A stretch of 35,238 bases of DNA from Thiohalomonas denitrificans (GTDB lineage Bacteria > Pseudomonadota > Gammaproteobacteria > Thiohalomonadales > Thiohalomonadaceae): assembly GCF_016841685.1 (NCBI RefSeq), contig NZ_JAENYR010000020.1, positions 16,873 to 52,110 of the forward strand. Direction: 5' to 3'. Numbering within the stretch: position 1 is the first letter of the stretch; every line of letters starts with the position of its first letter. This document shows positions 8,642-22,047 of the stretch, piece by piece. Below the pieces are notes generated by a model that worked only from the letters and a program-made list of their open reading frames with translations, was not told where the DNA came from and did no database searches. Both the position numbers and the translations under genes were made by a program.

Positions 8642-10504
8642 TTAGCGGTTAGCATCGTTGCGCTCCTCCGCCTGGCTAATCGCCCAGGCCGCGTTGATTA
8701 GCCCGATATGGCTGAACGCCTGCGGGAAGTTTCCCAGCAGTTCTCCCGTTCTTGAATCGAACTCTTCCGAGAGCAGACCCACATCGTTGGCGCAGGCGGC
8801 TGCGCGTTCGAAGACGACTTTCGCCTGCTCCACCTGCCCCGCCAAAGCGCGGGCATGGGCGAGCCAGAATGTGCATAGCAGGAAAGCGCTCTCGTCCGCC
8901 GGCTCACCGTCGATCTCGCGATAGCGGTAAACCAGTCCCCGTTTGTCGGTCAGCCGCTCCTCAATCGCATCGATCGTAGCCAGCATGCGGGGATCCGTGG
9001 CTGGCAGAAAGCCGCTCAGCGCCATCACCAGTACCGATGCATCCAGCACATCGCTATCGAAAACCTGCACGTAGGCGCCTGCCCGTTCACTCCAGCCGCG
9101 TGTCAGAATTGCCTCACGAATCTCGTCCCGCGCTGCCAACCATTGGTCAACCCTCTCTTCACCACCAATCAGGTCGGTCAGGCGAATTGCACTGTCGAGG
9201 GCGACCCAGCACATCAGTTTGGAGTGCAGAAAGTGGCGAGGCTTCCCCCGGATTTCCCACATGCCCTGGTCCGGCTCCTTCCACCGGTTCGCCGCCACAT
9301 CGGCAACCTCAGCCAGAAAGCTGCGGGTCAATGGGTCGATATGTTCGGCAAGTTGGTGCCGTAGCCGTTCGGCCGCCGCCAGCAGTTCCCCGTAGACGTC
9401 AAACTGCCGCTGGTTCCAGGCACCGTTACCGACCCGTACCGGCGCACTCCCCCGCCACCCGGGGAGATGCACAAGCTGCCGTTCGGTCAGGTCATGTTCA
9501 CCGCCGATGCCGAACATGATCTGTGCGTCACGCCCCAGTCGGATCTGGGCCAGGGAGGCATCGGCGATGAAATCGAAGAACTTGTAGGCTTCATCGGGGC
9601 AGGCGGCCACCCAGAGTGCATCCAGGGTCATACTGGCATCCCGCACCCATGAGTAGCGGTAATCCCAATTGAGTCCGCCACCCATCCGTTCCGGGAGGGA
9701 CGTGGTCGCCGCCGCAACGAAAGCTCCGGTGGGATAGTAAGTCAGGGCCTGGAGCAGCCGGCCACCGAAATGGACCTGTTCCCTCCAGGGACCCTGATAG
9801 GCCTGGTGCATTGCCGACCAGTCTTGCCAGTTCGTGATGGTATCTTCGAGATATTCCTGGATGGCTTCGACCGACCAGGGGCCGGGGCTCGGTTCGGCGC
9901 TACTGCGAAATTCCAGGGCAAAAGCCGCACGCTGCCCCTTTTCCAGGCGAAAGCGCGCATGTGCGGTGGAGGTATCCGTCTTCAGGGGAATGGAAGCGGA
10001 GAGACGCAGGACGGATGCCCCGCCGCGGGCCAGCACGCCGCCCGCCACCGGGCGCAGGATCGGCACGATCAAGCCGTACTCCGGACGTGGAGCGTAGTTT
10101 GTCGTCAACTCCATTGACCCGCGCGTGCATACGGCCTCCCGTATAACGGCATGGGGCGAATCCTTGCCGATGGCATGGGCCCCCTGATGCAGGCCGATGG
10201 CGAGTGCATCACGGATGACCACCTCGCCCTCCTGCGAGCGGAAAGTGGTGTTCACCACCATGGAGCCCTCGATGTAGCCGCGTTGACCCTGAATATCGTC
10301 TACCGGCCCAAGCTTCCAGTAGCCACCCTCGCCCCCGAGCAGGCGGGCGCACAGGGCCGGAGAATCAAACCGGGGGAGCGCGAGCCAATCAATGGAGCCG
10401 TCGCGATGGACGAGCGCTGCTCCCTGACAGTCCGACAGGAGCGCATATTCGGCAATGGGGCGTCCGTGCATCAGAGCATCTCCAGGCGCTTCCGCTTCAA
10501 TCAA
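8642..10504 (-). CDS. Glycoside hydrolase family 15 (glucoamylase/trehalase-like)
   Basis: A 620-aa cytoplasmic enzyme with no signal peptide. The N-terminal beta-sandwich domain opens with IAEYALLSDCQGAALV and GSIDWLALPRFDSPA. The (alpha/alpha)6 catalytic domain contains NWDYRYSWVRDAS (about 279-291), a probable general acid in MWEIRGKPRHF (E417), and the second catalytic glutamate in LLSEEFD (E580/E581). Members hydrolyse alpha-glucosidic bonds of maltooligosaccharides or trehalose; the substrate cannot be told from sequence. It is a single-gene unit, divergent from yejK with about 70 nt between starts. M12 is an alternative start. Confidence 0.9.
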   Translation of the reverse strand: MIEAEAPGDALMHGRPIAEYALLSDCQGAALVHRDGSIDWLALPRFDSPALCARLLGGEGGYWKLGPVDDIQGQRGYIEGSMVVNTTFRSQEGEVVIRDALAIGLHQGAHAIGKDSPHAVIREAVCTRGSMELTTNYAPRPEYGLIVPILRPVAGGVLARGGASVLRLSASIPLKTDTSTAHARFRLEKGQRAAFALEFRSSAEPSPGPWSVEAIQEYLEDTITNWQDWSAMHQAYQGPWREQVHFGGRLLQALTYYPTGAFVAAATTSLPERMGGGLNWDYRYSWVRDASMTLDALWVAACPDEAYKFFDFIADASLAQIRLGRDAQIMFGIGGEHDLTERQLVHLPGWRGSAPVRVGNGAWNQRQFDVYGELLAAAERLRHQLAEHIDPLTRSFLAEVADVAANRWKEPDQGMWEIRGKPRHFLHSKLMCWVALDSAIRLTDLIGGEERVDQWLAARDEIREAILTRGWSERAGAYVQVFDSDVLDASVLVMALSGFLPATDPRMLATIDAIEERLTDKRGLVYRYREIDGEPADESAFLLCTFWLAHARALAGQVEQAKVVFERAAACANDVGLLSEEFDSRTGELLGNFPQAFSHIGLINAAWAISQAEERNDANR

Positions 10505-10574
10505 AAACTAGCACCGTTGGCCGCAGCCTCTGCTGAGAGTAGAATTGCCACCTCGCTCCAAGGCCTTCGAATCC

Positions 10575-11576
10575 ATGTCCATCACGCACGCCACCGTCCA
10601 TCGTATCCGCCGTAGTACCGATTCCGAGGCCGAAATGTCTCTCCGCCAGCAGGAACTCGCCGCCGAAGAGTCCTGCGAAGCGCTGCTGGATGGCTTGAAA
10701 AGCGCATTTCTCGGAAGGATTAGCCGCGAACACGGCAGTTTTTCCACGGAAGAGGGTTCGGCTTCCCTGCCTCGGCAACTGACGGATTTTGTCAAAGATG
10801 AGCGTGCCTTCGGAGAATTGACGGCAACCCTGATGGAGGATTTGCGACGGCACCTCGACAGCGGCAAGGTCGAACTAAATGCGCACTGCCTCTTCTTCGT
10901 GGAGAAGACACCGATCCGCCACCTCTTCTACTGGTTTATAGCGAGCCAGAAGGAGGCGCTCTCCATCGGCGACGACCTCAAGGTCAAGCCCAGCTACTCC
11001 CTCGACACCGGTCCCTCGCTGTTCGGCATCAAGGTGGACCTGGCGGAGTGGAAGGTACGACAGCATTACTCCTATCTGACCCTGCTGCCGCCTCGCGGTA
11101 ATCCGGGCCTCACCGACGCCTTCTACGCACTAACGGGGTTTGCCAATGGCCTCGACAAGGCCGGAGCCACGCTCGCGTTTCTCGAAGGGGTGGAGGCCTA
11201 TTCGGAAAAGCTTCCGGAAGAGCAGGTCGGCGAATATCGCAACCAAGTGGTCGAATACTGCCTGGAACGGGATCAACAGGATGCGCCGGTCGACCTGAAA
11301 GAACTGGCACAGACGCTCGACGGTGTTGATCACGACGAGTTTGTTCAGGTGGTAGAGCGTCGCGCTCCGGAAGGCGAACAGGAGTTGATGATGGACCGCC
11401 GCAGCCTGCGCCGCTACGTCAAATTTGCTGGTCGGGAGAAAGACCTGGCGATCAGCTTCGGCTCCTATCAGCTCAACCAGCGGGTCCACTACGACAGCGA
11501 CACCGATACCCTCAGCATCAACGGCCTGCCCAGTGCCCTCAGAAAACAGCTTCTGGAGCATCTGCAGCGGGATTAG
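10575..11576 (+). CDS. yejK: Nucleoid-associated protein YejK/NdpA
   Basis: A 333-aa protein of the 37-kDa nucleoid-associated family (NA37), which associates with the bacterial chromosome. Family features include the N-terminal ITHATVHRI segment, the LSIGDDLKV and LDTGPSLFGIKVDL region, and the C-terminal LRRYVKFAGREKDLAISF block. ATG 10575 was preferred over the upstream TTG at 10545 because family members begin at about this point and have this length; AAGG lies about 11 nt upstream. The following flavin-protein gene starts 42 nt after the stop and may be co-transcribed. Confidence 0.9.
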   Translation: MSITHATVHRIRRSTDSEAEMSLRQQELAAEESCEALLDGLKSAFLGRISREHGSFSTEEGSASLPRQLTDFVKDERAFGELTATLMEDLRRHLDSGKVELNAHCLFFVEKTPIRHLFYWFIASQKEALSIGDDLKVKPSYSLDTGPSLFGIKVDLAEWKVRQHYSYLTLLPPRGNPGLTDAFYALTGFANGLDKAGATLAFLEGVEAYSEKLPEEQVGEYRNQVVEYCLERDQQDAPVDLKELAQTLDGVDHDEFVQVVERRAPEGEQELMMDRRSLRRYVKFAGREKDLAISFGSYQLNQRVHYDSDTDTLSINGLPSALRKQLLEHLQRD

Positions 11577-20261: not shown

Positions 20262-20684
20262 TTATGCGAGGGTATAAGTTGCGCGCTCGGGAGCGGCAAT
20301 TCGTCCATTGCGCTTCAGGTAGGCCAGGCACTGGCCCAGGTTCGAAGTGTCGACTCCCGACTGCTCCAACGAGGAGCGAATCTCTTTGGTAGTGGCCTTG
20401 CCGGACTGACTGAGTACATCCAGTACCGCCTGAGAGATGTTGCCTGAGGAACGGCTGCCACGCACACTACTACCGATGCTGCGTTTCAGGGTAAGAATTT
20501 CCTTGTCAACGGCACCGACCGCTTTTTTGTTTTGCGCTATCAGTTCGCGGCGCTGGGCACGTAGAGCCTCAACTTGAGCTTTTACCTCTTCACGCTCCTT
20601 TTCGAGTTCCTCCTGTTCGCGCCGTTTTGCCAATTCGTACAGTTCCTGGGCACTCAGGGCTTCGATATTCTTACGTTTTGCCAC
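20262..20684 (-). CDS. Coiled-coil plus winged-helix-like protein, unknown function
   Basis: A 140-aa protein with GTG start and a good GAGGAG site 8 nt before it. Residues 10-60 are highly charged (Glu/Lys/Arg) and predicted coiled coil. A Ser/Gly-rich linker (70-82) leads to a compact C-terminal domain (about 83-140) that looks like a winged helix: ISQAVLDVLSQSGKATTKEIRSSL, then LAYLKRNGRI. This suggests a small DNA-binding, possibly dimeric, regulator or chromatin protein. It was not matched to a named family. It stands alone between intergenic repeats and the atpC terminator. Confidence 0.75.
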   Translation of the reverse strand: MAKRKNIEALSAQELYELAKRREQEELEKEREEVKAQVEALRAQRRELIAQNKKAVGAVDKEILTLKRSIGSSVRGSRSSGNISQAVLDVLSQSGKATTKEIRSSLEQSGVDTSNLGQCLAYLKRNGRIAAPERATYTLA

Positions 20685-20833
20685 TTACTATCTCCTCGAA
20701 AAAGCTTCGTCTGAGAAACAGATATCTACATCACTGGAAGCATTATATACAAATCGATAAATTAGTAAATTTCTCTTGTTATCACAACCTCTTTGATTGC
20801 AATTCATCCGGTTTCTTTCAAAAACAACGAAAA

Positions 20834-20855
20834 ACGCCGCTTGGAAAAGCGGCGT
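20834..20855 (-). terminator. Terminator of the atpC-kinase operon
   Basis: 7-bp stem ACGCCGC / GCGGCGT with an 8-nt loop; on the - strand it is followed by TTTTCGTTGTTTTT. It lies 25 nt after the atpC-like stop. Confidence 0.85.
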
Positions 20856-20880
20856 CACCCTCGATCATGACAAAAAACCT

Positions 20881-21324
20881 TTAACGTTTTCGCTTCCACT
20901 GACTGTCTCTTAACGTTCGTAGCTGGGCCAATGCTTTCATCATTTCAACCCGTGCGTGATCACGATCGGTATACAGGACACTGGTGCGAATAAGCGCTTC
21001 GGCCCGACGTTTGGCCTCCAGGGCAGCCTGCTTATCGATCTGTTCTCCGCGCAGGACAGTATCTGCAAGAATCGTTACCTCATGGGGCTGGACTTCCATC
21101 ATTCCACCGGACACGTAAATGTATTCGTATTCGTCATTGGGCAACTTCAGACGTGCTTCGCCCGGATTCAACAGCGTCATCAATGGGGTATGGCGTGGCA
21201 GAATACCCAGCTCCCCTTGAACCGATGCAACCGATACCATGCTGACTTCACCGGAGAAGACCTGCTCATGGGCGCTGACAATATGCAATACCAGCGTCGG
21301 AGCACTATTAACGGGAGAGCTCAT
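20881..21324 (-). CDS. Orphan F-type ATP synthase epsilon subunit (AtpC-like)
   Basis: A 147-aa protein with the N-terminal beta-sandwich of ATP synthase epsilon (LVLHIVSAHEQVFSGEVSMVSV, GELGILPRHTPLMTLLNPGEARL, YIYVSGGMMEVQPHEVTILADT) and a C-terminal helical pair (about 95-145). In the usual operon this subunit follows atpD. Here no other ATP synthase gene is present. It follows a cytidylate-kinase-like gene, the AAGGGG ribosome site overlapping that gene's stop. It may be a second epsilon paralogue or a displaced single copy. Epsilon normally couples rotation and inhibits ATP hydrolysis when ATP is low. Confidence 0.88.
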   Translation of the reverse strand: MSSPVNSAPTLVLHIVSAHEQVFSGEVSMVSVASVQGELGILPRHTPLMTLLNPGEARLKLPNDEYEYIYVSGGMMEVQPHEVTILADTVLRGEQIDKQAALEAKRRAEALIRTSVLYTDRDHARVEMMKALAQLRTLRDSQWKRKR

Positions 21325-21333
21325 GATCGCCCC

Positions 21334-22047
21334 TTATCGATACTCGCGTTTATCAAAAACGAGTCCGATAGCATTAAGGACCAGCTCTGTAATCTCATCC
21401 CAGCGGTCATCGAAATGATCGGTATTGACAATAAGGTCGAAGCACTCCGGTTCATTCAAATGATGCCCAAATGCTTTCCAGAGGAACTGCTCCCTCTCTT
21501 TATTCACCCGCATAACCTCTGCAAGCGACGCATCAAAATCCATCTCCTGGCGAACCGATACCCGCCGGGCAGAGAGTTCGGGGCTTCCAACCACTCGCAA
21601 GCGAAATACCGGCCGATTGGCCAGAATCACGTGGCTTCCGCGTCCGACAATAATTCCACCGCGTTGCGCCAGCGCCAGCACCACATTTACCAAATGGTAA
21701 CGATAAGAGGCTAAAAAGGCTTTTTGACCTGTCAGGAAGTTGTAAATCCAGGTAGCTTTACCCGTTTTTACCTTATCATCAAGCTTAGCCATTAACTCCG
21801 GCGAGGATTTTGCACTTTCAGCGACAGCATCAAGAATTGCCCGATCCCAGACCTCAACACCCAAAGCCGCGGATAACCGTCGGGCTATCTGCTCGCCGCC
21901 AGCACCATACCCCCGGGAAATGGTCACAACCCGCTTCTCCGGTCCGTGCTTGGGTTCCCGTTGGCCGTGAAAATGCTCAGACCGGATTAAATTCTGGATT
22001 AGCTCTTGAACGTCGGTGGGCATGGTCTCACTCGTTGCCAGCTTCAC
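21334..22047 (-). CDS. Cytidylate-kinase-like protein (Cytidylate_kin2 type)
   Basis: A 237-aa P-loop kinase-like protein. After a 38-residue variable N-terminus comes VVTISRGYGAGGEQIARRLSA, the nucleotide-binding loop of the Cytidylate_kin2 family (SR-x-GxGGxxIA). Further on are GGIIVGRGSHVIL and a lid-like, Arg-rich RVVGSPELSARRVSVRQ, then FDLIVNTDHF near the end. True Cmk has a CMP-binding insert that is not apparent, so the substrate is uncertain. The GTG at 22047 and the ATG at 22023 are both possible starts; neither has a strong ribosome site. It is co-transcribed with the AtpC-like gene (9 nt apart). Confidence 0.8.
   Translation of the reverse strand: MKLATSETMPTDVQELIQNLIRSEHFHGQREPKHGPEKRVVTISRGYGAGGEQIARRLSAALGVEVWDRAILDAVAESAKSSPELMAKLDDKVKTGKATWIYNFLTGQKAFLASYRYHLVNVVLALAQRGGIIVGRGSHVILANRPVFRLRVVGSPELSARRVSVRQEMDFDASLAEVMRVNKEREQFLWKAFGHHLNEPECFDLIVNTDHFDDRWDEITELVLNAIGLVFDKREYR

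Follow-up and report, generated by a model that had tools for sequence, protein, structure and literature searches.

ATP synthase is usually viewed as having one fixed epsilon subunit, the arm of which blocks wasteful hydrolysis. What role, then, is played by an epsilon gene that stands outside the atp operon and beside a gene for a kinase-like protein? The question is raised by a locus of Thiohalomonas denitrificans (genome size 3.79 Mb) within the 35,238-nucleotide stretch of DNA analyzed here, referred to as the window (G000:C57:16873-52110). The initial annotation described an orphan epsilon gene lying 9 nt behind a Cytidylate_kin2-type gene, with its own terminator and no other ATP synthase genes, and proposed that the two form an energy-state regulatory unit. 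The results presented below suggest that a second, arm-altered epsilon together with the kinase-like protein may constitute a swap-in regulator of ATP synthase. Both protein families are known; the novelty lies only in their pairing, the changed arm, and the operon contexts.

A two-gene locus encoding an additional epsilon subunit

The accessory F1 epsilon subunit, for which the name AtpC2 is used here, is encoded on the minus strand at 20881..21324 (147 aa), and the upstream Cytidylate_kin2 (PF13189) gene at 21334..22047 on the same strand (237 aa), both identified as open reading frames with profile matches. The ATG at 22023, rather than the 22047 end of the open reading frame, is the probable start of the kinase-like gene, because in the sister genome G001 a TGA in the same frame closely precedes that codon. 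In the 9-nt spacer between the two genes (21325..21333, minus strand), the TAA of the kinase-like gene leads into a G-rich stretch resembling a ribosome-binding site ahead of the AtpC2 ATG, and an intrinsic terminator-like hairpin with a 10 bp stem lies 3' of AtpC2 (20833..20856, minus strand). The upstream neighbor of the pair is a divergent gene for a PreP-type M16 peptidase, as identified by Pfam, and the pair therefore looks like its own short operon. No match to ATP synthase alpha or beta subunits was found on the window's contig. The arrangement described in the initial annotation was thus confirmed in each of its parts. Just downstream of the pair, at 20262-20684 on the minus strand, is a gene for a 140-aa protein lacking a Pfam or NCBIfam match, which among the compared loci was matched only in G001.

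AtpC2 scored above the cut-offs of both TIGR01216 (123.2 bits, cut-off 67.25) and NF001847 (155.8 bits, cut-off 135) and matched both Pfam epsilon domains, PF02823 and PF00401, but fell below that of TIGR03166, the profile for the alternate, N-type F1F0 epsilon (23.3 bits, cut-off 100.1). Like the F1 epsilon AtpC (PF02823/PF00401, TIGR01216), AtpC2 is a complete two-domain epsilon, with an intact beta-sandwich followed by a two-helix C-terminal arm, and its closest solved chains are the ATP synthase epsilon subunits 5t4o and 1bsh. In a structural model of the two window proteins as a read-through fusion, the AtpC2 strands are followed by helices at 98-114 and 118-146 (fusion numbering minus 241). 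Based on family membership from these profiles, AtpC2 is a putative subunit of F1Fo. It differs from ordinary AtpC in being encoded outside the atp operon, in being a second copy, in being co-encoded with a kinase-like protein, and in the re-specification of its inhibitory C-terminal arm.

The normal atpC of the same genome was found on contig C38, downstream of atpD and behind the alpha, gamma, and beta genes, and the window epsilon is therefore an extra copy and not a displaced sole atpC. A second epsilon is likewise present in all seven genomes of the window's family that carry the pair. By coordinates, the other epsilon adjoins a beta-subunit match in six of these; in the seventh, G019, it lies on a 4.4 kb contig separate from the alpha and beta matches. 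Outside the family, 15/16 pair genomes encode at least two epsilons, the exception being a 2.4 Mb Methylococcus MAG. More than one epsilon was detected in about 42 of 369 gammaproteobacterial genomes when weaker second matches were included. From a list of 36 multi-epsilon genomes, the neighborhoods of 16, covering a minority of the weak second copies, were viewed, plus that of G034. At L169:4083-5360 (G321:C23), two epsilon genes in tandem follow atpD, separated by a beta-subunit-like fragment.

The kinase-epsilon pair is conserved

The pair occurs in 25 genomes spread over several families of gammaproteobacteria (23 used in the trees and 2 found later), so that it is not a peculiarity of a single genome; nor, given the normal atpC elsewhere, is its epsilon a relocated sole copy. 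Within the window's family, a kinase match was found in 7 of the 20 genomes searched, counting that of the window (G000), and the same seven have an orphan-type epsilon directly after the kinase; the remaining 13 had no kinase match. When the seven family loci were compared, only the kinase and epsilon genes were common to all genera, while the flanking genes varied. The pair is conserved, and its two genes move together.

A kinase alignment run against 84,980 named species returned 42 loci, 16 of which have an epsilon beside the kinase. These 16 comprise loci from relatives of the window, from Ectothiorhodospira and Methylococcaceae, and from a Halothiobacillaceae MAG, with four of them residing, as judged by length, on the same contigs as G002, G015, G018, and G019. 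No epsilon match was found within the other 26 loci. Similarly, among 369 genomes of the class, the kinase was detected in 16 at E <= 1e-10, with an epsilon adjacent in six and no adjacent epsilon in ten. Given these kinase loci without an epsilon (26/42 and 10/16), the kinase family must have other roles as well. Kinase loci of Rhodospirillales and Magnetococcales gave no epsilon match by tblastn, and at L061 a later search found distant atp-like genes with a weak epsilon match among them. A search of plasmids yielded four records, all below 60% identity, with 24-33% among the matches listed. In the Magnetococcales loci L081 and L082 (about 8704-10597), a Cytidylate_kin2 gene without an epsilon is found behind a polyphosphate kinase 2 gene, the latter called by domain scan in L081 and by similarity in L082.

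Among the ten kinase-epsilon junctions listed, eight overlap by 1 to 13 nt, and in the other two the genes are separated by 1 and 9 nt. The overlap of kinase stop and epsilon start in eight of ten points to translational coupling.

Paired epsilons form a separate lineage with an altered inhibitory arm

In a tree of 68 epsilons, comprising 23 paired and 45 others, a branch with support of 99/97 parts 22/23 of the paired from 45/45 of the others. The single paired epsilon on the other side, L106, is short and long-branched. Judged by this phylogeny, the paired epsilon is a lineage separate from ordinary epsilon. The two sets share 26 positions with conservation of 85% or more, and 17 of these fall within the beta-sandwich part, no higher than position 88. 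In contrast, the four best-discriminating positions, window D122, R121, K130, and S115, are all in the C-terminal arm, where the codons for S115 to K130 occupy 20935..20982 (minus strand).

Alignment to 1bsh (offset 7) places window S115, R121, D122, and K130 at E. coli S108, Y114, A115, and K123, respectively. In comparisons between the paired set (n=23, with the outlier L106 kept in) and the canonical set (n=45), at positions chosen post hoc as the most discriminating, the S108 site is S in 17/23 paired versus 3/45 canonical epsilons, and the A115 site is D in 21/23 versus 0/45. The Y114 site is R or K in 22/23 paired epsilons, compared to Y, W, or F in 39/45 canonical ones, and the K123 site is K or R in 21/23 paired versus 1/45 canonical, with E in 35/45 of the latter. 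In E. coli epsilon, mutations of S108 and Y114 are reported to weaken inhibition of ATP hydrolysis, and K123 to touch beta D372 (PMC5990651). By these residue comparisons, the inhibitory, or braking, arm is the most changed part of the paired epsilon.

The site corresponding to R92 of the Bacillus PS3 type, mapped by its spacing from a conserved Asp alone, is Ala in 20/23 paired and 35/45 canonical epsilons. With no R92 equivalent apparent at this site in 20/23 paired epsilons, ATP sensing by AtpC2 itself is not supported.

The kinase-like partner

The partner scored well above the gathering cut-off of PF13189 (120 bits, cut-off 28) and well below that of the (d)CMP-kinase equivalog TIGR02173 (28.1 bits, cut-off 102.1). 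An AlphaFold model displayed a CMP-kinase-like fold (pLDDT 82.8, pTM 0.78), with the best structural matches to 3HDT (Z 20.2) and 3FDI (Z 19.3), followed by CMP kinases with Z up to 17.0. The PDB titles of the 3HDT and 3FDI chains are 'putative kinase' and 'uncharacterized protein', and these Cytidylate_kin2 members share with the partner the same G-x-G-G P-loop without the lysine; unlike them, the partner is linked to an F1 epsilon. The Walker-A lysine was found in 0/52 aligned relatives, the site being G in 50 and A in 2, and 'kinase' is therefore the name of a fold for this protein and not a demonstrated activity. R162, R185, D204, and N208 of the partner are kept in 51-52 of the 52 relatives, and R136 in 50. 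From these features, it is plausible that the partner binds nucleotide. The kinase tree excludes weak or partial matches (L093-L096 and L110-L112) and duplicate loci. No characterized function for PF13189 (Cytidylate_kin2) was found in the open-access literature, and the linkage to AtpC2 gives the family a function to look for. At L105:365-2173 (G382), a 602-aa open frame has the Cytidylate_kin2 domain (residues 331-501) as its sole Pfam match.

The evolutionary distances of the kinase correlated more closely with those of the paired epsilon (0.81) than with those of the canonical epsilon (0.64), and the partial correlation between kinase and paired epsilon, controlling for the canonical epsilon, was 0.67, in each case across 21 genomes, with L106 excluded as the outlier and L078 because a canonical epsilon was not found there. 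In the fusion model, the domains fold well (pLDDT 85.5; pTM 0.63) but no confident interface was obtained, the alignment used being unpaired and imperfect, with misaligned kinase tails. For each of eight stand-alone epsilons of other gammaproteobacteria, the surrounding stretch that was viewed contained no kinase match.

Genomic settings of accessory epsilons

In Methylococcaceae (e.g., L069) and G154, the pair is preceded by a gene of the Ham1 family (the ITPase family) and followed by one for pyruvate phosphate dikinase (PPDK; 1255 and 1275 bits to TIGR01828). In G034 (L143:2590-11836, G034:C51), a Cytidylate_kin2 gene lies 7 kb from a second epsilon gene of ordinary appearance, within a minus-strand gene run that also includes an aldolase, a PEP-synthase-like enzyme, PFOR subunits, and an iron-sulphur/flavin protein. 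All five genomes of the family of G280 encode one epsilon beside atpD and one accessory epsilon, the latter behind the kinase in three, behind phosphofructokinase in one (G374:C1, L153:3697-5315), and behind PFOR genes with an iron-sulphur/flavin protein in one (G169:C9, L155:4462-9610), with the G374 and G169 copies belonging to the G280 ortholog group. In G189:C57 (L158:1618-5389), a stand-alone epsilon with no PF13189 gene nearby follows genes for arginine deiminase, ornithine carbamoyltransferase, and an amino-acid-kinase-family protein that we read as carbamate-kinase-like. The membrane pyrophosphatase was also considered as a link, but showed no association, being present in 7/7 pair and 12/13 non-pair genomes of the window's family and in 7/13 other pair genomes.

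These settings, together with the altered arm, fit the energy-state regulatory unit proposed in the initial annotation, which is thereby partly supported; the lack of a confident arrangement in the fusion model and the missing Walker-A lysine stand on the other side. Contact between the two proteins, ATP sensing by either one, and entry of AtpC2 into F1 are what we infer beyond this. A broader reading, which we regard as rather doubtful, is that portable accessory epsilons are encoded with ATP/PPi/PEP pathways (arginine deiminase pathway, PFOR, PEP synthase, PPDK, phosphofructokinase) or with a nucleotide-sensing kinase-like protein, such that switching on the pathway would re-tune the sole F1Fo by an epsilon swap. 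Of the nine stand-alone epsilons examined outside kinase pairs, five have neighbors unrelated to this theme (a chromate transporter; DNA ligase; DNA polymerase I; a thiazole/ABC transporter setting; and one setting without a Pfam hit). If true, a pathway-encoded epsilon would add a tier of control over ATP synthase, no description of which was found in the literature searched.

Possible roles of AtpC2

Based on the two-gene structure, its conservation, the separate sequence branch, the re-specified arm, and the normal atpC elsewhere, all directly supported, the explanation we favor, at somewhat short of even confidence, is that the two genes form an operon in which AtpC2 would serve as an exchangeable second epsilon that, in certain conditions, inhibits the housekeeping F1Fo differently, while the kinase-like protein would act as a nucleotide-sensing partner. 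AtpC2 would compete for the single epsilon site of the sole housekeeping F1Fo, its N-terminal domain docking on gamma and the c-ring as that of ordinary epsilon does, while its arm, which has S108- and K123-like residues but Arg in place of Tyr114 and Asp in place of Ala115, would offer other contacts. An F1Fo that had taken up AtpC2 would then be inhibited differently in the direction of ATP hydrolysis. The kinase-like protein, co-produced with AtpC2, would most likely bind nucleotide and most likely control AtpC2, whether by chaperoning, sequestering, or modifying it. The steps that we infer are the uptake of AtpC2 by F1, the change in inhibition, the sensing of nucleotide, and the physical partnership. 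A conserved second, arm-altered epsilon, linked to a nucleotide-binding fold and elsewhere to pathways producing ATP and PEP, would mean that bacteria exchange the brake of their ATP synthase to suit metabolism.

In purpose, namely extra control of F1 hydrolysis, the proposed role of AtpC2 is analogous to those of the zeta subunit and IF1. IF1 is described as one extended helix and zeta as a four-helix bundle (PMC9317440), and by that description AtpC2, an epsilon paralogue, has a fold unrelated to either. The open-access literature searched yielded no account of such a second or orphan epsilon, and searches there on a kinase or PPDK context of epsilon, and on PPDK operons in methanotrophs, returned nothing on the pair.

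The strongest rival explanation, which we consider unlikely but well worth weighing, is that AtpC2 has left ATP synthase and serves only the kinase-like protein, as a small subunit with a regulatory or nucleotide-binding function, the kinase-like protein itself then acting in nucleotide or PPi/PEP metabolism. The absence of atp genes nearby, the Ham1 and PPDK neighbors in Methylococcaceae and G154, and the concentration of the greatest differences in the arm are all consistent with such a role. However, the shared conservation of 26 positions, 17 of them in the beta-sandwich, would be unexpected if F1 binding had been lost, and in G374 and G169 accessory epsilons of the same ortholog group persist with no kinase beside them.

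Less probable still is that AtpC2 is a redundant copy of atpC, kept as a backup or for dosage, which came to lie behind a kinase-like gene by chance. Multiple epsilons are common enough in gammaproteobacteria to lend this some credence, but the separate branch of the paired epsilons, the conservation of the kinase linkage across several families, and the residues specific to the paired group argue against it. Finally, that AtpC2 belongs to a second rotary ATPase of the V/A type or alternate N-type is highly improbable, since the V/A-ATPase, present in 7/7 pair genomes of the window's family, also scores above cut-off in 3/13 non-pair members and occurs in only 1/13 pair genomes tested outside the family, a distribution that largely refutes it as a partner, and since AtpC2 falls far below the TIGR03166 cut-off for the N-type. 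The V/A-type ATPase of the window's genome is located at L149 (G000:C24:60000-76000).
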